In this document: one piece after another, positions 953 through 16,900 of the stretch
Layout: every line of letters begins with the position of its first letter
How positions within the stretch are numbered: the stretch's first letter is position 1
From: a virus
Direction: 5' to 3' (one strand)
Length of the DNA stretch: 22,212 nucleotides
Virus record (IMG/VR): IMGVR_UViG_3300042484_000522
Coordinates: 1 to 22,212 of that record
Position numbers and translations under genes: made by a program
Notes under the pieces: model-generated
Seen by the model: only the letters and a program-made list of their open reading frames with translations
Told to the model about the DNA's origin: nothing
The model's database searches: none

Positions 953-3900
953 TTATACAGTATTACTTAATATTCTTTCTTGAATATAATTACTTTCACC
1001 CAATTTAGAAATCATGTTGTCTAATTTAGAATTTAATGTTTCTACTAATAACATGTTTGATCTGTACAAGTCGGCTAATCTTGATTGTGAGTCATTGTTA
1101 ATTTCAGTTGGTTGATTGTCCGGAGTAGTAGCTAATCTAGAAAGTATTGAGTCCGAATTAATAGGTTGTATTAACTCAGTTCCATGTAACTTTCCTAAGT
1201 ATCCGGTTTCAGGGCCTGATGCTATACCGCCGGTAGCTGCTGATATCGTTGCTGAGTCTAACATGTTTGTAACTCTTGGCCCTCTTCCGCCTACCTGATC
1301 ATACCATCTACTATTTCGTAAATTATCAGCAGCAGAACCTATATCTCCTTCATTAAGTTGGTTAGATAAGTTAGGCCACCCACTTAGCCAATTTGGACCC
1401 ATATTAAATGTTAAGTCTGTTAATGCTGTTTGCCCTAATCCATCTAACTGATTAAATCTAGGTATGCTCTGTGCCGCCGTTTTATGATGCATGTAATCTT
1501 GATCAAACATATCCATTACTTCATCATGACTAAATCTTCTGTTCATTTCAGGCGGCAAATTACTACCGATTAAATGCCCCACTCCAACAGTCCAATTACC
1601 TAAAGTATCTTGATATGGTTCATATCTTATACCTTCATTGTTTATTATAAAATCTTTTGCTTGTTGGTCAGATACATTAGTTCCTGTATTTCTTGCTATA
1701 CTAACCTGAGGAGCAGATGTAGAAGAAGTTATTCCTGTATCTGTTGTTGTACTAACTTGCGGAGCAGGTGTAGTAGAAGTTATTCCTGTATCTGTTGCTG
1801 TACTAACTTGCGGAGCAGGTGTAGTTTGAGAATTTGTATTTTCAGAGTCAGGTGATCTAACTGCTATACTTAATGATCCAAATGCTTCTATTAGTAAATC
1901 AGTAGTAGATACTAAATCATCAAACGAGTTTGTTAGTGTAGGTATTTTACCTACAGTTGTATCATCACCGGTTAATTGAGATAATGATTGAGCTAAATCC
2001 TGTGTCGCGGTACCAAAAGCAGAAGATATGTTTCCGGTAACTGCTTCTTCTTCTTGAGTTTCAGTATCACTACTTCCGCTAAATTCTTTCCAAATTTGGT
2101 ATACAGCCCAGGCTGTAGATGCATTAAGACCTAAGTTAATTAACGCCATAATCCAACCAGGGCCCGGCACAACTAGTAAACCTGCTGACAAAGCCAATTT
2201 TCCAGCTACTCTAGGTCCTAATTTAGTGCTTACCTTTTGAAGGAATTGACTGAATCTTGAGGATCCTGCCTGTGTCGGACTTGGTGTTGATGGCGGAGTA
2301 TAATTTGAATTAGACACAGTTTGCCATGTAGGTCTTATTTGTCCCGATCTCATTACTTGTTGACGAATTGTAGAACTGGTTGAAGTACCGGCAGCAGCAG
2401 CAGTACCGGCAGCAGCAGCAGTACCGGCGGCAGCAGTACCGGCGGGTGTTCCCCCTAACACTCGTCTCGCAAGACTAGTTACTATTTTTGGTGCTAAGAT
2501 TACACCTAAGGCTCCAATTACTGCTGCTCCTAATCCAGAAATACCCGCACCTGATACTTCATTATTGCGTTCTTCTTTAGATACACCTGTTATTATCTCA
2601 TAAAGAGCATTACCTGTTTCAAGTGTTTTTGATGCAAAGTTAGTCAGACTTGGAAGTACATTTGCACTAATAGTAGATACTACTTCTCTAAAGTTTCTAC
2701 CCAATTCTTCCAATTCTGATTGCAAATTCATTACTGGATCTGTTGTGCCATCTGCTGATTCTGTTATCTTTGCGAATGCTGCCGTAATCAAAGCTAATCT
2801 TTCTTCTTCAGTTTGTCTTCTAGTTACAGCAGATGCTCCCAATCTTTCAACTGAACTTCCATATACTTCTAAATATTCTGGTCCTAAAAGTGCTGCAAGA
2901 CCGTTACTATTGTCTACTATTGCATCGGATGAAACTTGTAAATCTTTTGTGAAATTTGCAACAAGTACCGCAGCTTCTTCTAACGATCCCTCAAAGTTAA
3001 ATAACTCACGAACATTTCCCACAAATGACAATCCAGCTTGATTAAAACCCATTTCTATAGAAGCTATACCTTCAGTAAAAGCCATGCCTTGTGTTGCTAA
3101 GGATGTCATCGCATCAGCAGCTTGTTTGACACCCATTTTTTCAGGACTAATACTAGTTGCTGTTATCATTAATACTTGATTCACAAGTTTCATACGATTG
3201 ATGTCAGCTTCTCTTGTTGCTATTTCTTCCTGACTTAATGTAGATTTTTTTGCTGATAACTCCTCCTCCATTCTTATTAGTTCTATATCTCTATCTGTCA
3301 TTAACGCTTGAAAGTTAGCATGTTGTTGTTGAAATTCCATAGCTTTTTGTTGCTGCTCTAACGTATCTCCTGATAAAGTACTTAAAGCATACAAAACATC
3401 TCTATATTGAAGTGAGGCTTCTTGTAATTTTTTTTGTCCGCTCTCACTTCTATCCAAAGATATACCACTTCGTAACAAACTACTAGCATAATGACCTTGA
3501 TATTCAGCTAGTTGTGTTTGAGATATACCCAACATTCTATACTTTTTAAGTTGATCTTCTCCTACATGAACAAAACTAGCAAAAGCTTCTACACCTCCCG
3601 CAACTCCTCCACCAAGTGCTACTAAGGTGCTACCTTGCTTTTTTACTATATCACCAAAAACTTGTAAATCATCACCTGAAAATCTTGATTCTCTTCCTAA
3701 ACGCTCTAGCTCAGTGGCTGTTAATCCTGCTGCTCCCCCTATAGTAGCAACAGAATCAAATGTTTTTATGATAGTTCCAGTGTACTTTACTAAGCTATCT
3801 GCAAATATTTCTGCTGCTTTGGTAGCAAATTCAATGGACTTAACAAATATAGGCGACGCATTTGACGCACTGGCTAAACCTGACGCTAATGTGCCGGCGC

Positions 3901-4280: not shown

Positions 4281-5114
4281 ATGAGTACATCTAATAACCC
4301 ACTAAAGCAATACTTTAGAAGACCAGCTATCTATATCAAGCTACCATCCAAGGGTAAATATTATACTCCTGATGTTTTAAATTATCCAGAAACAGAAGAA
4401 ATACCTGTTTATCCTATGACAGCGATTGATGAAATTACTACAAAAACACCCGATGCATTGTTTAACGGTAATGTAATAGTTGATCTTATAAAAAGTTGTA
4501 TACCTGATATCAAAGATCCATGGAAAATAAACAATATTGATTTAGACACTATATTGATTGGAATCAAAGTAGCTTCTACTGGAAATAGTTTAGAACTAGA
4601 TTCACAGTGCCCTGCTTGCCAGAATAAAGCAACTTATGCAATTGATCTAAATTTTGTACTAAGTGGGCTAACGTCACCTGACTATGAAGAAAAATTAGAA
4701 GTTCTTGAACTAAAGTTAAAGTTTAATCCTTTGGATTATAATGACATCAATCAAGCTAATTTAGCACAATTTGATTTACAAAGGTTGCTATTGTCCGTTG
4801 AACAAGAAAAAGATGCTTCAATAAAAGAACAAAAATCTCAAGAAGGGTTAAAAACTATTACAGAGTTATCAATTAAACTTATAGCTAAAACTATAGAATA
4901 TGTTGAAACTCCTGATGGGCATAGAGTAGATAATAAAGAGTTTATTGAAGACTTTTTAAGAAACTGTTCTAGAGATACTTTTAATGCAATCAAAGAGCAT
5001 AACGCTAACTTAAAAGAAAAAACTAACTTAAAACCTTTGGCATTACAATGCGGTGAATGTAATCACCAATATCAACAACCATTTACGTTGAATGTATCCG
5101 ATTTTTTCGGATGA
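4281..5114 (+). CDS. 26: Baseplate hub subunit, T4 gp26 family
   Basis: A 277-residue protein resembling the T4 gp26 family of baseplate proteins, which take part in building the central hub of the baseplate. Visible hallmarks are an N-terminal FRRPAIYIKLPSKGKYYTP, a central EEIPVYPMTAIDEITTKTPDAL with LFNGNVIVDLIKSCIPDIK, and two cysteine pairs, C110-x-x-C113 and C257-x-x-C260, that could bind one zinc ion. T4 gp26 is 208 residues, so this one is longer. The start is supported by GAGGA at 4270-4274, six nt before the ATG. The stop overlaps the next start as ATGA, so the two genes are probably translated as a coupled pair. A late-promoter-like box and a hairpin lie upstream. The family call rests on recognised sequence patterns; zinc binding is inferred from the cysteines. 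Confidence 0.78.
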   Translation: MSTSNNPLKQYFRRPAIYIKLPSKGKYYTPDVLNYPETEEIPVYPMTAIDEITTKTPDALFNGNVIVDLIKSCIPDIKDPWKINNIDLDTILIGIKVASTGNSLELDSQCPACQNKATYAIDLNFVLSGLTSPDYEEKLEVLELKLKFNPLDYNDINQANLAQFDLQRLLLSVEQEKDASIKEQKSQEGLKTITELSIKLIAKTIEYVETPDGHRVDNKEFIEDFLRNCSRDTFNAIKEHNANLKEKTNLKPLALQCGECNHQYQQPFTLNVSDFFG

Positions 5115-5338
5115 GGCTCCTTAGTTTAGCCCCTGAGGATATAAAGAGCCTGATTGACCAGCTAGAAAAAGAATGTATTGAGATAAAAAGACAAGCACTT
5201 TCTTTTTCATGGTATTCTAGGGGCGGACTGTCATATACAGACGCCCTTAATTTATCTGCACCGGAAAGAAAATTAGTAAGTGAACTAATTGAATCCAACT
5301 TAGAAACAACAAAGAAATCTAAACTTCCATTCTTTTAA
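5111..5338 (+). CDS. Small conserved phage protein coupled to gp26 (function unknown)
   Basis: A 75-residue acidic/helical protein whose ATG overlaps the gp26 stop codon (ATGA), so translation is very likely coupled. The first 30 residues look helical and charged; the second half contains SWYSRGGLSYTDALNLS and ends LETTKKSKLPFF, a pattern I associate with small proteins at this position in marine T4-like phages. In T4, the gene after 26 is 51, a hub-assembly factor of about 250 residues. This protein sits in the equivalent place but is far too short for me to call it gp51. A role as a baseplate or tail assembly chaperone is possible and is inference from position only. It is the last plus-strand gene before the structured non-coding region. 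Confidence 0.85.
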   Translation: MRLLSLAPEDIKSLIDQLEKECIEIKRQALSFSWYSRGGLSYTDALNLSAPERKLVSELIESNLETTKKSKLPFF

Positions 5339-5340
5339 TC

Positions 5341-5369
5341 TATATTAAAAGTTGTCCTTACGGACAACT
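5341..5369 (-). terminator. Rho-independent terminator-like hairpin, minus strand
   Basis: On the minus strand AGTTGTCC pairs perfectly with GGACAACT (8 bp) around GTAA, a GNRA-type tetraloop, followed by TTTAATATA. The plus-strand reading has the A tract before the hairpin and no T tract after it, so the terminator works only for minus-strand transcripts. It would end the transcript leaving the gp55-gp47-gp46-nuclease operon and would form the 3' end of the structured RNA. The U tract is short, so strength may be moderate. Confidence 0.65.
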
Positions 5370-5818
5370 GATACACTCATTCGTATTCGCTTTGCTCATA
5401 CTCATTTCGGTATCATATTGATTAAATTATATCTGGGGTTTAAATCATTGCAGTCTTGAAGCCATGGTAGTGCTAAACAGCACTACCACTGGTTAAGATT
5501 CCTTGCGGCCTCTCGCCTTTGCCATCTGTTCCCCGTTAGAGTTAGCCGTTTAGCTACCTAACGCCACCGGTTGCTCTGTAAGGTTTGCTGGGACTGTAGT
5601 TGAAGACTAATAGTGAACAAATCACTATCGCTTCAGCAACGCATGTTCTATATCCGCAAGATAGAATAAAATATAGACTCATTCAGGGTTCGCACACATA
5701 ACGAGAGCCCTGTCGGTGTTCCGTACAATCAATTACTACTAGATTGTACGCTTACTCCAGAATCCAACGGCAATAGCACTATGCTAGCAGTCTCAAGGAG
5801 AGTCGGGCTATCCCGACT
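5350..5818 (-). ncRNA. Candidate large structured RNA in the 497-bp non-coding gap
   Basis: No gene of useful length lies between 5339 and 5835. Perfect or near-perfect stems occur throughout: 5350-5369 (8 bp), 5465-5488 (10 bp, 4-nt loop), 5534-5563 (6 bp plus an inner 4 bp at 5543-5556), 5610-5628 (7 bp, extended by 5601-5605 with 5631-5635), 5646-5666 (6 bp), 5684-5712 (5 plus 4 bp with a bulge), 5722-5750 (9 bp, 11-nt loop), 5774-5786 (5 bp) and 5801-5818 (7 bp). G/C content is 53 of 100 at 5481-5580, well above neighbouring coding DNA. The minus strand is favoured because its last hairpin has a GNRA loop and U tract, and because a hairpin at 5383-5401 has tandem G-A mismatches in that reading. 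I looked for tmRNA, RNase P RNA and group I intron core motifs and did not find convincing ones. GOLLD- or ROOL-like phage RNAs are possible but untested. Confidence 0.55.
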
Positions 5819-5835
5819 AAACGAATTGTTAATAA

Positions 5836-6369
5836 TTATGACTTGGTGTCGGGTTGAGAATTAGAGTTTGAATATACTTTAAGAAGGTCTTTATTATGAT
5901 TAAAAAAATGATCAAAGTCAACGAGAATCCAATCACCCTGATTTTTAGATGTATAGTACATAAACTGGTCAGTAACCCATGTGTACTTAGTTTGAACAGC
6001 GATAAACTTACCTTTGCGATTGATCTTAACAAACAAAATGTTTAGATCGTCTTTATCTGCTACTGCCATTAACTGTTCTAACCATCCATCAAGTTGTTTA
6101 CAGCTACCTGCTAGAACTTGATGAAACGGGAAGTCTCCATAAGATTTACATTCACAATTGAAGTTAACCCATGAATCTGGAGCAGCTATATCACCTTTAA
6201 AAGACTTTACTTGGTTCGTGTCAAGAGATTCTTTTCTTACAGAATTCTTTCCACCAACATAAGCTCCTGAATTAGGGATTCTATGAAAGCTGGATTGATA
6301 TAAGTCGCTAAGATATATAGCGACTGTTCTTTCCCAAGAATTACCTTTTGCTTTTTGTGGTGATGTCAT
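5836..6369 (-). CDS. PD-(D/E)XK-type nuclease, possible Holliday-junction resolvase
   Basis: A 177-residue protein with the layout of a compact PD-(D/E)XK nuclease: an N-terminal helix with E13 (GNSWERTVA), then FHRIPNSGAY, then G59-D60 and, 13 residues on, E73-C-K75 in the strand CECKSY. E13, D60, E73 and K75 are the expected metal-binding and catalytic residues. A Gln in FHQ (about residue 83) also fits families that carry a QxxxY-like helix. It follows gp46 by 38 nt on the same strand, so it is probably part of the recombination operon and could process branched DNA, the job T4 assigns to endonuclease VII. The fold call is fairly safe; the substrate is inference from context. The C-terminus is polar and tail-like. 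The structured RNA region begins just after its stop. Confidence 0.75.
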   Translation of the reverse strand: MTSPQKAKGNSWERTVAIYLSDLYQSSFHRIPNSGAYVGGKNSVRKESLDTNQVKSFKGDIAAPDSWVNFNCECKSYGDFPFHQVLAGSCKQLDGWLEQLMAVADKDDLNILFVKINRKGKFIAVQTKYTWVTDQFMYYTSKNQGDWILVDFDHFFNHNKDLLKVYSNSNSQPDTKS

Positions 6370-6407
6370 ATCATTAATTATCGTGTTTCAAACTGTCCAA
6401 TTTATTT

Positions 6408-8483
6408 TCATACATCTTCACTGCTAGTAGCAAAGGTTGTAAATCCGTTTTCTTTAACTACTCGCAGTACGCTAGTTACACGATTGACTAGATCATCTTT
6501 ATGACTAATCAACCAAATAGATTTATTTCTAGTTCTGTTCATATCTTTTAATACTGACAATGAGTTTTCAACACCAACACTATCAGTACCGTTGTCTAAC
6601 AATTCGTCAATAAACAATACATTGATTGGAGAGTACAAGTTTTCCCATACATCGCGGAACGCCCAAGACAATGCTAATATCAGTCTGTTCATTTCTCCGC
6701 GGCTAAGATTATGAAAATCTAACTCTCTACCAAGTTCAGTAATCTCTACACTCAAGTCATTTTTGAACACAACTTGATGAGGCAATCCAATCTTGTCAAG
6801 ATAATGTGTCAATCTGCTGTTAAGATACGACAAGTTCTGATCAATAATCTTTTTACGAACAAATGAGTCTTTACTGGTTAACAATTCAACCAAGAACTTC
6901 AAATGATCAGCTTTTTTACTAAGTTCATTGATCGTATCAAATTTGATTTCTTGTAGTGCATCTTTTTTCATGTCTGCAATTTGATCAATATAAGGGTCAA
7001 TTTCGTTAGCTTTCTTTTCTAATTGTTCTAGCAAATTGCTAACTTTACTTTTATGCTCAATAGCTTCTTGTTCAGTATCGTAATGAGTTTTGGGCATAGT
7101 ACCTAAAGTTTCAACAACATGTTCACTAACTTGTTCTTGATATGGATCAGTTTCATTTTGCTTAGCTTGAATCATGTTTAAGATACTTTCTAGTTCAGAG
7201 TTATGCTTAAACGCTTCTGCTTCAGTATCGTAATAAGTGTTAGGTTCCAAACCCAATTCAAAAATAGAATTTTTATTTTTTTCTAATTCATTTTGGGTTT
7301 GGGCAACATCTCCTTGTGCTGATGCTAACAAAGCTTCTTTCTGACCTAAAACTTCATCATGCTTTGTATCATGTAAATCTTGTCCACAAGCATAGCATTT
7401 ATGATCTTTAAGAGTTTCAACTTCTTTTAATAGTTTGTCTACTAGCTTTTCTTCTTTGGCTAGTGTAGTTTGTAATGAAACAATTGTTTTGTTTAAAAGA
7501 GCTAGTTCTGCTTTTTTCTTTTGATGGCTAGTTAAATCTTTGTGTGCTTGTAGTTCAGCACTAATATCAATATGACTTAGTTGGTCGTAGGATTTTAAAA
7601 GAACAGCAATTTCACTTTCGTTCTTTTCTTTCCAAGCAGTTTGTCTAGCAAGTAATGCTTCATAAGCATCTTGTTTTTTCTTACGCTCAAAATACAAAGC
7701 CAATTCTTTATGGGTTAGTAATTCTTGCTCAATATTGATTTTACTAAGATCATCATATGTAACAGCCAAATTAGTTACATCTTCATCATGCTTAGCTGTC
7801 CAAAGTTTTTGTCTGCGTATCAAACTGTCTATTTGTTCTTGTACACGCTTATTGGCTTCTTCAATAGCTTTTACTTTAAATTCTTCTAACTGTACTTGAT
7901 CTTTTGTTTCTTTAGCCAAGATTTTTAGCTTTTCAGCTTTTTCGGATAGCAGTGTGATACCCATTAACTGTTCAATAATGTCACGCTGATCTGCTGCTTT
8001 CATAGACAAAAACGGTTCAGTATAAGTATTCAAAGCAATAATATGTTTAAACATATCATTGCTCATACCTATAATTTTTTCTATTTGTACCTGAGTTTCT
8101 TTATTTTCACCCTGTGCAGAGTCTTCACTGTCTTTTACTGCTTCTCCGCCTATGTAAAATTTCAAAAGATTGGGCTTTCTACCGCGCTCTATTTTATACT
8201 CAGTACCATTAACATTAAAGTCAAGAGTAACTAACATACCCTTTCCATTTGTACGGTTAATTAAATTATCTTTTCTGATGTTATTAATTGGAGAACCAAA
8301 CATTGCGTAAGATACTGCTTGAATCATTGTTGTTTTACCAACACCATTTCTGGCACCATCGCCCCCTAAGTCTAAGTTTTCGCCCAGAATAAGTGTTAAG
8401 TCTTTGTTATCAAAGTTTACTGCTTGGGTAACATTTCCAACAGAAAGAAAATTTCTAATTGTTAAATTCTTTAGTACGATCAT
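6408..8483 (-). CDS. 46: Recombination nuclease ATPase subunit gp46 (SbcC/Rad50 type)
   Basis: A 691-residue SMC-like ATPase that works with gp47 to resect double-strand ends for recombination-dependent replication. It shows the N-terminal lobe MIVLKNLTIRNFLSVG, a Walker A loop ending GVGKTT at 47-52, a long coiled coil, a zinc-hook C363-Y-A-C366, the signature LSRGEMNRL from 593, Walker B VLFIDELLD around 622-630 with D626/E627, and the switch His661 in SHKDD. The hook is close to the middle, as expected for an antiparallel coiled coil. T4 gp46 is 560 residues; the extra length is explained by internal duplications on both arms (repeats spaced 56 residues at W228/W284, and 50 residues at the two YDTE motifs ending at 421 and 471). 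The start overlaps the gp47 stop as ATGA, consistent with one-to-one coupled synthesis of the complex. Identification is very firm. Confidence 0.96.
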   Translation of the reverse strand: MIVLKNLTIRNFLSVGNVTQAVNFDNKDLTLILGENLDLGGDGARNGVGKTTMIQAVSYAMFGSPINNIRKDNLINRTNGKGMLVTLDFNVNGTEYKIERGRKPNLLKFYIGGEAVKDSEDSAQGENKETQVQIEKIIGMSNDMFKHIIALNTYTEPFLSMKAADQRDIIEQLMGITLLSEKAEKLKILAKETKDQVQLEEFKVKAIEEANKRVQEQIDSLIRRQKLWTAKHDEDVTNLAVTYDDLSKINIEQELLTHKELALYFERKKKQDAYEALLARQTAWKEKNESEIAVLLKSYDQLSHIDISAELQAHKDLTSHQKKKAELALLNKTIVSLQTTLAKEEKLVDKLLKEVETLKDHKCYACGQDLHDTKHDEVLGQKEALLASAQGDVAQTQNELEKNKNSIFELGLEPNTYYDTEAEAFKHNSELESILNMIQAKQNETDPYQEQVSEHVVETLGTMPKTHYDTEQEAIEHKSKVSNLLEQLEKKANEIDPYIDQIADMKKDALQEIKFDTINELSKKADHLKFLVELLTSKDSFVRKKIIDQNLSYLNSRLTHYLDKIGLPHQVVFKNDLSVEITELGRELDFHNLSRGEMNRLILALSWAFRDVWENLYSPINVLFIDELLDNGTDSVGVENSLSVLKDMNRTRNKSIWLISHKDDLVNRVTSVLRVVKENGFTTFATSSEDV
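7023..7252 (-). repeat. Tandem duplication in descending coiled-coil arm of gp46
   Basis: Two 150-bp units encode parallel segments: PNTYYDTEAEAFKHNSELES with QNETDPYQEQ, and PKTHYDTEQEAIEHKSKVSN with ANEIDPYIDQ. The DNA is also alike around the shared TTCAGTATCGTAAT at 7071 and 7221, which points to a fairly recent duplication. Confidence 0.8.
7490..7805 (-). repeat. Tandem duplication in ascending coiled-coil arm of gp46
   Basis: Two units spaced 168 bp encode LWTAKHDEDVTNLAVTYDDL with INIEQELLTHKEL, and AWKEKNESEIAVLLKSYDQL with IDISAELQAHKDL. They lie before the zinc hook and mirror the separate duplication after it. Confidence 0.8.
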
Positions 8484-9499
8484 AGATTTTTGTATAACTC
8501 TAATAGGGTCTTTGTATCATAAAAATCACTTTCAATGTTAGTGATTTCTTGTAAAATAATTTGATCCACTGACTCAAATTTTAGTTCAGTTTGCGCATTG
8601 TCTTGTGAAACACTGTCACCCTTCATTGGGATCAAAGTCATTTCTCTTAAATTATATTGAGGAATCAATGTTTCTCTGATAAAGTTAGCTTCTTCATATG
8701 AAATATCAATATCAAGATGTACTCTAACATGTGAGCGAGATAATAGCAAACCATCAGGGTTATCTAAGATTTCACTTAGCTTATACACTCTAAATGTAGG
8801 TTGTTTAGGCCAAGCATGAAACTCAGGTTCTTGATCCCATTCTAGAATCATCATTCCCCTAGCATCATCACCAGCATCTGCATAGTTGTGAGGGAATGCA
8901 TTTCCAATATACCAAATGTTTTTTCTAGCTTGTCGCTTGTGAAAATGCCCTGAGAATACTTTTTCAAACCCACTTACATGAGTATCACTAACTTCTCCGT
9001 GATCTGGCATCAGCACGGCCGCATTCATAAAAAAGTTGGGTAGTTCAAAATGTCCAAACAAATACTTGCCCTTCATTTTAGAAAGCTTTTTAAAGTCATC
9101 TCCGATCAACCAAGGAGCAATAACAACATCTTCATGCTTGAACCAATCGTTAACAATTATAATATTGGGTAGATGTTTAGCCCATTCTACTGAGCTAATA
9201 TCTCTACGATCTCTGTAGTATAAATCGTGGTTGCCTGGAATAAAGTAGACTTTTTCAAACGCATCGTTCATTTTCTCTAATGCTTTTAAGCCAAACTGTA
9301 GCGTTTGAATGTTGATACTTGCTCTATGATGATTCCAATCACCCAAGAAAAAACAAGTTTCACAACCCTCTTGCTTAGCTTTTTGAATGAACCATTCAAC
9401 AAAGTCTAAACAATCTTGATTGTGAATTGTGCTGTTGCTCTTATTTCCAAAGTGAATATCGGTAAAAACTGCTGCTTTTTTAAATAAATTATTAGTCAT
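8480..9499 (-). CDS. 47: Recombination nuclease subunit gp47 (SbcD/Mre11 type)
   Basis: A 339-residue calcineurin-like metallophosphoesterase, the nuclease partner of gp46. All signature motifs are present in order: D14-I-H16, G53-D54 followed by N56-H57-H58, G89-N90-H91-D92, G149-H150-F-E and G184-H185-F-H187. The last 100 or so residues form a C-terminal part expected to contact gp46. Length matches T4 gp47 (339 residues). The stop overlaps the gp46 start by the ATGA arrangement. The gene begins 50 nt after gp55 on the same strand; no good Shine-Dalgarno is seen before its ATG, so translation may depend on readthrough from gp55. Identification is very firm. Confidence 0.96.
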   Translation of the reverse strand: MTNNLFKKAAVFTDIHFGNKSNSTIHNQDCLDFVEWFIQKAKQEGCETCFFLGDWNHHRASINIQTLQFGLKALEKMNDAFEKVYFIPGNHDLYYRDRRDISSVEWAKHLPNIIIVNDWFKHEDVVIAPWLIGDDFKKLSKMKGKYLFGHFELPNFFMNAAVLMPDHGEVSDTHVSGFEKVFSGHFHKRQARKNIWYIGNAFPHNYADAGDDARGMMILEWDQEPEFHAWPKQPTFRVYKLSEILDNPDGLLLSRSHVRVHLDIDISYEEANFIRETLIPQYNLREMTLIPMKGDSVSQDNAQTELKFESVDQIILQEITNIESDFYDTKTLLELYKNL

Positions 9500-13923: not shown

Positions 13924-16900
13924 ATGGCTGAAAACGTATTCAAACCTAGAGGAACATTGAACGCATATAAACCTGACTCAGGTGGAGCATTTATCAGGTC
14001 TTCTCCTGTGTTTGGTATAGTAAAAGATAATATTGACCCTGTCAGGGCAGGTAGGCTTAAAGTTTACATATCCGGTTTAAACAGTTTAGATCCAGAGAAT
14101 TCTTCTGGTTGGGTAACTGTGAGATATATGACTAACTTTTTTGGAAGTGTTAGACCAACTTCAAGTAGTGAGGGTTCTGGAGATTTTAAACACAATCCAT
14201 CGTCATATGGTGAGTGGCACGCCCCTCCCGATATAGGAACTACTGTAATTTGTGTTTTTGTTAACGGGGATGTAAACTATGGTTTTTACATAGGGTGCGT
14301 ACCGGACCCAGAAACTTTACATATGGTTCCTGCTATTGGTGCAACTTTTACCGATCAACAAGAAAATGTATCATTCAATAATGATAGCGAGGGTTCTACT
14401 TACGGAGGGGCGCCCAGACTACCTACTACAAATATGAATACAAATAACCAAGCTGAATCTAACAAGCCGGGTTTTATAACTGCAACCAAACCAGTACATA
14501 GTTATACAGCGGCTATCATGGAACAGCAAGGTATAATAAGAGATCCAGTGAGAGGTCCGATATCATCAAGCGCACAACGAGAAACTTCTAGTAGAGTGGG
14601 ATGGGGAGTAAGCACACCCGGTAGACCTATATATGAAGGAGGTTTTGATGATGAAACAATTGCTGAAAATATAAAAAATAACCCAACAAACATTGATCAA
14701 AAATTACGAGTGATATCTAGACGCGGCGGACATTCTATTGTAATGGATGACGGTGATGTTATAGGTAGAGATCAGTTAGTCCGAATAAGAACAGCAAAAG
14801 GTCATCAAATACTTATGAGTGATGACGGACAAACATTAATGGTTCTACACTCCAACGGACAATCGTATATAGAATTAGGTAAAGAAGGTACAGTAGACAT
14901 TTACTCTACAAATTCCATTAACTTAAGAACTCACGGTGATCTAAATTTACACGCTGACAATGACTTGAATATACACGCGGCTAAAAATTTAAATATTCAT
15001 GCAGAAAACATGAATATAGCCACTGATAAATCATTAACACAATCTATAGGTATGAACTTAATAACTTCTGCTTTAGGAATGGTTACAACTAAAGTTTTAG
15101 GAGCAATGAGTCTTCAAGCTACCGGTATAGCTTCATTCTCAAGTACTGCATTAACTTTTATAAACGGAGGACTAATAAATTTAAACACAGGTAAATCTCC
15201 TATTATTCCTTTAGATGCAGCACCTACTCCTTTAATAGCGCACACTGATACTCTTTTTGATAATCAAAAGGGATTTACCGCAGCGCCTGGTAAGTTGATG
15301 AGTGTAACATCTAGGGCACCTGCTCACGCGCCATGGGCTCATGCAGGTCAAGGAGTAGACATAAAGGTTGATCTAAGTTCTTCTTCACAACTACCTCAGG
15401 GTCCTAGTTCAGCTTTATCTAATGTAGTACAAGCAGGACTTAGAACAGGTGCTGTGCCGGCAAGACTAGCAACTGCATTGTCCTCGCCTACTGCCGGAGC
15501 CATTAGCAAATCTTTAAACAGTTCAGCTACTACTGCACTAATAGGTGCTACTGCTCAGCAAGCAGCTTCAGGACCTCTATCTTCGGCTATACAACGAGGA
15601 GCATCCGTAGTAAATGTGGGTTCGTCAAGAATCGCTGCGATAGGAGCATTTGCACAAAGCCCGGCGCAACTAGCAAGTGCTGGTGTCTTGAAACCGGGAT
15701 CAGATAGGCTAATTAATTCATTAGTAAGTTCAGGGGCTAATATTACGCAGGCTATGCCAAGTACATTGTTTACTGGTAACTCTGGTGCAGAGAATTTAAG
15801 TACCTATACTAGACAAATACAATCTCAAACTAACACGGTTGTTACAACACTGCGACAATCACAAACAGCGTTAACTAATACGGGTGTAATTACAGGAAGA
15901 GAAACATCAGGTCAAATAGCAGGAGTGGTTTTTTCAGGTGTTAACTCTGGTTTAAGTAACACAGTAACTACAGTAAGAACTGTAGTTAATAAAAATACTA
16001 CTGATTCTTCTGTACTAAGAGACATAGGTTTAGCTACCGCATCTGTGACAGAAGCAACAAACACAATAGAAGGCTTCGGCGGAATTTCACAAGCAGTAAA
16101 TGCGATGTCTATATCACCAAGTATTAGTGGCCCGATAGCAAGTAATACCGGTATTGTGGGCTCTACATTTTCTGCAATAAACTTGTCATTCCCTTCTTTC
16201 AGAGCTGGAGTAGCTACTAATTTAGGTACTTCGGTTAGTAGTCAGCAAATAGTTTCTGATTCACTTTCTAATGTAGTAGGGCAAGCTAGCGCAGATGTTA
16301 TTAGTAAATTAAATCCCGTTAGTTCGTTAGGTGCTCAAGCATTACAGGGATTCACTGGCACTTCACTCTTGGAATCTACTAATATAGCTAGCGGGATAAT
16401 CAATATGCCCGGTGGATTGAAATCAATTGCATCTTTTACTGATAAAGCATTACCAAATTTAACTAGCATTCCCGGATCTGGTCAAATATCGTCATTAGTC
16501 ACTGGATCTTTTAGCTCTGCAATGAATAATTTACCTCTTCCAAAATTACCAGGTGACTTGAGCAGTTTAACTAGCGGATTATCAGGTGGACTAGGCGGTA
16601 TAACCGGTAGCTTAACAGGCGGATTAGGAGGTATAACTAGTAGCTTAACAGGTGGACTAGGAGGTATAACTAGTAGCTTAACAGGTGGACTAGGAGGTAT
16701 AACTAGTGGATTATCAGGTGGACTAGCAAAATCTCTTTCAGGATTGCCGATAGGATCTATTGCTGGTGCAATGTCTGCTATTTCTGCTGTAAAATCATTG
16801 TTTGGCGGCAAAGGAAAATCTAGAACATTATCAGTTGCAGTAAACACTACTAACAGAGAATCTATCAATCAGAAAACAGTTTCATTGTTAGGAGATCCAG

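Follow-up and report, generated by a model that had tools for sequence, protein, structure and literature searches.

The window analyzed here is a 22,212-nt stretch comprising positions 1–22,212 of the IMG/VR virus record IMGVR_UViG_3300042484_000522, and coordinates refer to that stretch. Between two convergent open reading frames, 5111–5338 on the plus strand and 5836–6369 on the minus strand, lies a gap at 5339–5835 that the initial annotation had described as non-coding, richer in G/C than the genes around it and full of perfect stem-loops. This description was borne out: GC content is 0.42 in the gap versus 0.33 in 4281–5338 and 5836–9499 combined, the named stems at 5465–5488 (10 bp), 5722–5750 (9 bp) and 5350–5369 (8 bp) are perfect, and the stem at 5534–5563 has two parts. 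The minimum free energy of the gap is −150.4 kcal/mol, identical on both strands, with folding z-scores of −5.68 on the plus strand and −3.82 on the minus strand, and none of 100 shuffles folded as low on either strand. The gap is bounded by a resolvase (nuclease) gene and by a 75-aa gene (w75) for which a family search gave no family, with a baseplate hub gene beyond w75 (Table 1). Because the window carries hub, gp46, gp47 and gp55-like genes, and the best cultured matches of its gp55-like gene are PA5oct-like phages, Phosso, and 121Q and PBECO4 relatives, we place the virus with the jumbo phages.

No family of Rfam 15 matched in the window at the gathering threshold, and the sole match up to an E-value of 10 within 5100–6000, a fragment of Dicty_Class_I at 5351–5370, was dismissed as chance. 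The gap had previously been judged not to fit a tmRNA, RNase P RNA or group I intron, and those doubts were justified: ARAGORN finds no tmRNA or tRNA in the window, and no Rfam model for any of these classes matches. The suggestion that GOLLD or ROOL would be the nearest idea fared less well, with neither Rfam model matching the window RNA. A search of the titles and abstract openings of mostly open-access journal papers returned no published description of such an RNA.

Searching IMG/VR with the resolvase protein gave 24 loci, all of which keep a gap followed by w75 and the hub gene; the gap measures 407–543 nt in 22 of them and 2,655 nt in two. Fifteen of the gaps are distinct, of which ten, including the window's own, are alike and five (L020 to L024) look different. 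Nine of the ten were aligned, leaving out L015, which is nearly identical to L014. A 16-base probe from the 3′ hairpin of these RNAs, which we term type A, matched at least 120 stretches in IMG/VR; excluding L070, L090 and L114, which lack the partner strand and all four neighbors, at least 117 type A copies are present, some identical to each other, in a set that the probe biases towards the invariant arm of the hairpin. The RNA lies between a plus-strand w75 and a convergent minus-strand resolvase gene in all 94 listed loci that show both. At the blastn level there is one type A copy per contig in eight of eight contigs of 191–525 kb, unlike the type C copies described below, and no clear promoter was recognized upstream of type A copies. 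When the gap was compared with cultured phages, blastn returned chance matches only (E-value 0.5 or worse), and all 11 matches of a further search fall in the resolvase gene. Exact type A and type B patterns were also sought in bacterial and archaeal genomes, with zero matches in either scan.

Some loci carry additional genes beside the RNA. A single plus-strand ORF is inserted between w75 and the RNA in L113, L125 and L133 (203, 247 and 248 aa), the latter two starting with a GDSH motif by eye. A 229-aa ORF in the same place in L120 looks hub-like by eye and is perhaps a second, duplicated hub gene, while in L020, one of the two loci with a 2,655-nt gap, four extra minus-strand ORFs of 335, 110, 146 and 167 aa stand at 4896–7172 between the RNA region and w75.

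To describe the structure of type A, 68 representatives were chosen by k-mer clustering from the 115 sequences passing end filters among the matches listed. Column covariation in these representatives recovered the hairpins, the long-range helices and the pseudoknot with no prior model. We then counted 44 named pairs of the core, within 5718–5522 and including the loop pseudoknot, on 45 of the 68 sequences, the window among them. Standard pairs fill 97.8% of 1,979 cells, and 34 of the 44 pairs show changes in both partners. The covariation score reaches 0.534, compared to 0.204 in shuffles (none of 500 as high) and 0.066–0.104 in slid versions, a comparison that favors the structure in part because the structure was derived from the same family. 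The base pairs of homologous intergenic regions therefore covary strongly, at least within the type A set, and comparison of homologues supports the earlier proposal of a long folded RNA, here placed on the minus strand, where it follows the gp55-gp47-gp46-nuclease genes. On this comparative evidence, we show that the predicted window RNA has been kept under selection for RNA structure.

The same alignment bears on strand and on coding potential. Read on the minus strand, the 44 pairs contain 95 G-U cells versus 10 A-C cells, and the plus reading swaps these counts, so the RNA is assigned to the minus strand. RNAalifold energies agree, at −132.8 for the minus and −123.6 for the plus strand. 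An RNA on the plus strand was considered since single-sequence folding favors it, as the z-scores above indicate, and it was dropped on the G-U count and the RNAalifold energies; the z-scores were given less weight because the G-U count draws on 45 sequences. A coding region was likewise rejected: RNA lengths are spread evenly modulo 3 (26, 22 and 20 of the 68 sequences), and the frame of the lone 42-aa ORF is open in only 11 of 68, including the window. No coding frame is thus conserved, and together with the covariation above this turns down two of the conditions under which the initial annotation would have been refuted.

Table 1. Predicted features of the window RNA and of its flanking genes; pairing and two-sided changes refer to the type A alignment.
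Feature	Position	Strand	Basis
Structured non-coding RNA, type A (predicted; ends approximate)	5440–5830	−	Covarying helices and conserved blocks in 68 representatives
5′ hairpin GUCGGG/CCCGAC (putative)	5802–5817	−	Window sequence; variable hairpins in the same place in homologues, by eye
Helix CUCC (5800–5797) / GGAG (5758–5755), probably closing the 5′ domain	5755–5800	−	Inferred
Hairpin, 9 bp	5722–5750	−	342 of 408 cells paired (six pairs counted, 68 sequences); 40 of the remainder are gaps
Long-range helix 5718–5714 / 5569–5565	5565–5718	−	97.8% of cells paired; 3 of 5 pairs changed on both sides
Hairpin 5712–5708 / 5688–5684	5684–5712	−	100% paired; 4 of 5 pairs changed on both sides
Hairpin 5682–5680, 5677–5670 / 5654–5647, 5645–5643	5643–5682	−	98.4% paired; 10 of 11 pairs changed on both sides
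Pseudoknot, hairpin loop 5664–5659 with 5527–5522	5522–5664	−	99.6% paired; 5 of 6 pairs changed on both sides
Helix 5640–5635 / 5575–5570 (GUUGC/GCAAC)	5570–5640	−	95.6% paired; 4 of 6 pairs changed on both sides
Pseudoknot helix 5593–5591 / 5533–5531 (weak)	5531–5593	−	94.8% paired; 1 of 3 pairs changed on both sides, in one sequence
Hairpin 5562–5556 / 5541–5535	5535–5562	−	96.5% paired (45 sequences); 7 of 7 pairs changed on both sides
3′ hairpin UGGUAGUGCU/AGCACUACCA then AUGGCUUC	5465–5488	−	661 of 680 cells paired, 68 sequences
Terminator-like hairpin, GUAA loop and UUUUAAUA	5342–5369	−	Sequence; z −5.2
PDDEXK_15 / RusA-like resolvase (nuclease) gene	5836–6369	−	PF24608 E 4.7e-25, phrog_244 E 3.2e-17
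75-aa gene (w75), small tail gene, syntenic marker	5111–5338	+	Conserved neighbor
T4-type baseplate hub gene, syntenic marker	4281–5114	+	PF12322 E 3.2e-18, phrog_150 E 2.5e-19

The predicted type A RNA is ∼390 nt long and lies downstream of the nuclease gene. Its 5′-domain closing helix does not covary because both strands are near-invariant in type A (the CTCCAG and TCAAGGAG blocks); by eye, the type B sequence L258 has TCCC and TTGGG in its place. Position 5565 covaries with 5582 as well as with 5718, indicating an alternative pairing or a triple, and the alternative pairing of 5583–5580 with 5567–5564 is weak, with two good pairs only. Also weak is a hairpin at 5634–5602 that covaries in the column scan and is poorly aligned. 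The invariance of the 3′ hairpin arises partly by selection, because one of its strands was part of the search probe. The minus-strand GNRA hairpin with a U tract that the initial annotation named (5350–5369) is real, but it falls beyond the conserved part of the RNA and resembles a terminator. Hairpins similar to it stand there in many type A loci by eye. In the window, two consecutive hairpins follow w75 at 5350–5410. Inspection by eye shows this arrangement in many type A loci, where the loops are often UUCG-like, and the pair perhaps forms a two-way terminator.

The gaps that look different led to a second group. With the resolvase of L024 as query, relatives are encoded in 109 stretches, of which the best 80 loci were kept; 14 of these 80 have the type A hairpin, and 55 others remain after removing duplicates. 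Blastn links 43 of the 55, and 42 were aligned as type B, L282 being dropped as an incomplete sequence. Judged by sequence and position, type B comprises putative RNAs that occupy the site of type A in phages with more distant nucleases. In the type B consensus, CCGUUG, a G-rich strand, CAACC and a C-rich strand follow in order, which gives a GUUG/CAAC helix and a helix crossing it. Thirteen of the 42 fail a filter for this motif, eight with a different core and five with substitutions; two of these five, L245 and L247, show matching changes on both sides of the GUUG/CAAC helix. An alignment of 21 of the 29 sequences passing the filter has GUUG/CAAC in every row; its first four pairs never vary, and the crossing helix does. 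Ahead of CCGUUG stands a hairpin with a loop that could pair with sequence further downstream; this complement sits at a loop offset of 22–25 in 18 of the 29 sequences, differs in its letters by lineage, and reaches 10 bp in L242 and 8 bp in L229 and L256. This complement has a shuffle P of 0.01 or lower in three of the 29, several of which are near-duplicates, and the first partner in L221 and L224 lies elsewhere. Type B gave no match in cultured phages. L268, L270, L272, L275, L276, L279, L280 and L283 carry a further variant after the nuclease, with a different core, and the 3′ module of type B (ACUCNNAUGA, hairpin, AAUCUNNAUGA) is retained in L280.

Among the loci scanned, the only Rfam 15 match was a fragment of Polynucleobacter-1 (RF01718), for which the membership threshold is 37 bits. 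With cmscan, two of 11 sources exceed it (L022 at 109.3 bits and L024 at 112 bits), as do two of 12 further sources (L229 at 103.2 bits and L300 at 38.5 bits). The model matches neither L020, L023 nor the other ten of the 12 sources (seven of them from the blastn-linked 43), and it finds no match in the window RNA or in the type C loci L149 and L151. L022 and L024, both from the nuclease search, match in the same gap that the RNA occupies in the window and on the nuclease strand. The 141 positions of the model cover only a 5′ stretch, approximately the first third of the RNA (4526–4661 in L024), before the GUUG/CAAC core. Polynucleobacter-1 is the nearest catalogued RNA to the window RNA, reached solely through an intermediate group.

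Possible relatives in cultured phages came from the equivalent site in jumbo phages. Escherichia phage 121Q has an unannotated 836-nt gap between gp46 and endonuclease VII on one side and a small gene and the hub gene on the other, and Erwinia phage SNUABM_44 has a similar gap at the equivalent site. We call the RNAs predicted there type C, a class defined here that is ∼450–550 nt long and unannotated as RNA in the records; copies at the shared site are also present in Munch, CBB, GAP32 and Hallingskeid. A search of INPHARED with the 121Q stretch gave 41 records at an E-value of 0.01, 28 of which align over at least 80% of that stretch. 121Q itself holds four dispersed copies. Ten of 14 jumbo genomes searched have type C matches, all ten having been already known from matches to the 121Q stretch or from synteny, with 3 to 5 copies per genome (three in RaK2). 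We aligned 47 copies from ten genomes, 45 fetched and two already known, and counted pairs on 29 of them, leaving out 18 with a longer variable hairpin. The count took in 30 named core pairs: standard pairs occupy 97.7% of 863 cells, and 27 of the 30 show changes in both partners. These pairs make up a hairpin, the contact of its loop with a downstream strand, the GUUGC/GCAAC helix and another two helices that cross.

A TATAAT-like box stands upstream of 43 of the 47 type C copies, with TGAAAC-like letters at −35 in many. A passage of PMC5259590 describes a promoter class of CBB and GAP32 with TATA at −10 and TGAAACG at −35, near DNA-synthesis genes and gp55. The type C profile also gives weak matches upstream of gp55 (E-values of 0.004 and 0.018). 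In a tree of the 47 copies, in which some forks are open and the bootstrap is not settled, 25 copies fall in five groups that each hold one copy from SNUABM_44, XbC2, CBB, GAP32 and Kaldavass; Munch and Hallingskeid copies pair five times, and the XaC1 copies cluster together, as do those of RaK2. These several old copies per genome suggest distinct roles.

Four further jumbo phages gave negative results. The 121Q copy has no match in PA5oct, Phosso, SCTP-2 or Vibrio 2.275.O, matches of 22–26 nt between a RaK2 copy and PA5oct and Vibrio (best E-values 7.9e-4 and 0.0018) were taken as chance, and profile searches there found nothing convincing. In Sinorhizobium phage Phosso (L148), ∼1 kb without annotated genes at 1987–3000 folds strongly at the equivalent site without a profile match, and may hold a still larger relative. 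Pseudomonas phage PA5oct (L150) has a ∼660-nt gap without annotated genes near its resolvase (14717–15379), with a TATAAT box by eye and no convincing profile match.

How the three types are related was addressed with profile searches, in which the nhmmer E-values between types refer to small target sets. Of the 55 sequences of the type B set, 7 are matched in their 5′ domains by the type A profile at an E-value below 0.01 (best 6.3e-11, compared with 0.095 in the best of 20 shuffled sets), and the type B profile finds 6 of the 68 type A sequences (best 2.9e-6) and the cores of 5 of the 47 type C copies (best 1.2e-4; best of 20 shuffled sets 0.026) below the same value. The type C profile finds neither type A nor type B, so that a profile match between A and C is absent, and the best E-value of a type A covariance model against ten cultured and five IMG/VR records, and 16 loci, was ∼0.4, read as chance. 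Since the type A model and the type C profile find no other type, kinship between A and C rests on type B as a bridge and on site, strand and the order of helices. The loop pseudoknot, the GUUG/CAAC helix and the downstream hairpin come in one order in types A and C, an order that type B may share in part. Type C is longer than type A and differs from it in the promoter-like box and the copy number, and resembles it in the ACAGRGCAACC block, the site and the constant orientation of the RNA relative to gp46 and hub. The nuclease lies on the RNA strand in type A, and in 121Q, CBB and GAP32 the endonuclease VII gene lies on the opposite one. These data support, with less certainty than the selection on structure, a window RNA that would be one branch of a wider jumbo-phage family (A, B and C) with one ancestral site, changeable 5′ and 3′ domains, and 3 to 5 copies in the enterobacterial lineage. 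Our best reading is that this putative family is largely undescribed; the window RNA falls outside RF01718 by that model's own score test.

We consider it probable that the minus strand from 5830 to 5440 encodes a free-standing, trans-acting structured phage RNA of ∼390 nt that belongs to this family as one of its branches. The core shown by the comparison is built from three elements: a hairpin that pairs through its loop with a strand far downstream, the GUUGC/GCAAC helix and, between this helix and that strand, a second hairpin. The RNA would be made together with replication and recombination genes and would act in trans, most likely as a scaffold binding a host or phage protein, or the ribosome, the partner being a guess, and the variable domains may set which partner is bound. 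An independent RNA gene is favored because type C has promoter-like boxes and occupies several sites, and because the nuclease strand differs while the RNA orientation is kept. These same observations weigh against a cis-acting 3′ UTR element, a fold in the nuclease mRNA that would control its stability or stop read-through between the convergent operons. That alternative fits types A and B, in which the RNA follows closely 3′ of the nuclease stop on the same strand, and in type A, where no promoter stands out, a terminator-like hairpin lies downstream; with one copy per contig as well, a processed 3′ UTR RNA, or part of the nuclease transcript, is therefore possible there. The pseudoknotted core and the near-invariant blocks would, however, exceed the needs of a stabilizer, and an opposite-strand endonuclease VII, a promoter-like box and copies elsewhere in type C are difficult to reconcile with a UTR, an argument that rests on A and C being one family. 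We judge the 3′ UTR alternative unlikely overall.

An ornate self-assembling RNA like GOLLD or ROOL, forming a multimeric cage or ring, would be phage-encoded, large and pseudoknotted, as those classes are described in a passage of PMC12286853, yet the absence of an Rfam match both at gathering and up to an E-value of 10, the smaller size of ∼390 nt and the lack of any tRNA found in the window make this quite improbable. Hairpins that matter as DNA, in an origin, packaging or recombination site, would suit the position beside recombination genes and the several type C copies per genome, but the G-U pairs on one strand point to RNA and type C copies carry promoter-like boxes, such that a DNA-level element is hardly credible. 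Beyond the reading of a trans-acting RNA at this locus, we tentatively propose a wider scenario: an unrecognized RNA superfamily in the core genome of a large jumbo-phage clade, retained at one ancestral site and multiplied in enterobacterial jumbo phages to about five ancient paralogues per genome, each transcribed with replication genes, that would form trans-acting RNA-protein machines with interchangeable domains aiding host takeover.

If the family reading is true, an orphan 141-nt Rfam motif would become the terminal part of a phage RNA that is large, modular and pseudoknotted, and likely members would be found in jumbo phages in culture, whose hosts include Escherichia, Salmonella, Klebsiella, Erwinia, Cronobacter and Pectobacterium among others. 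Cultured members can be probed, deleted and pulled down, so that what big phage RNAs do could be tested in laboratory hosts.

Compared with known systems, the window RNA is shorter than GOLLD and ROOL and is matched by no Rfam family, and it is like them in being a large structured phage RNA, a kind whose function the same passage (PMC12286853) gives as unknown. Polynucleobacter-1 stands closer. Its table entry in Weinberg et al. 2010 (PMC2864571) gives Burkholderiales and fresh water or estuary, in a passage that names no phage. It differs from the window RNA in that its orphan model covers a 5′ stretch only and the window scores no match, whereas the loci that carry it are like the window RNA in gap and strand, and the type B core follows the Rfam match.
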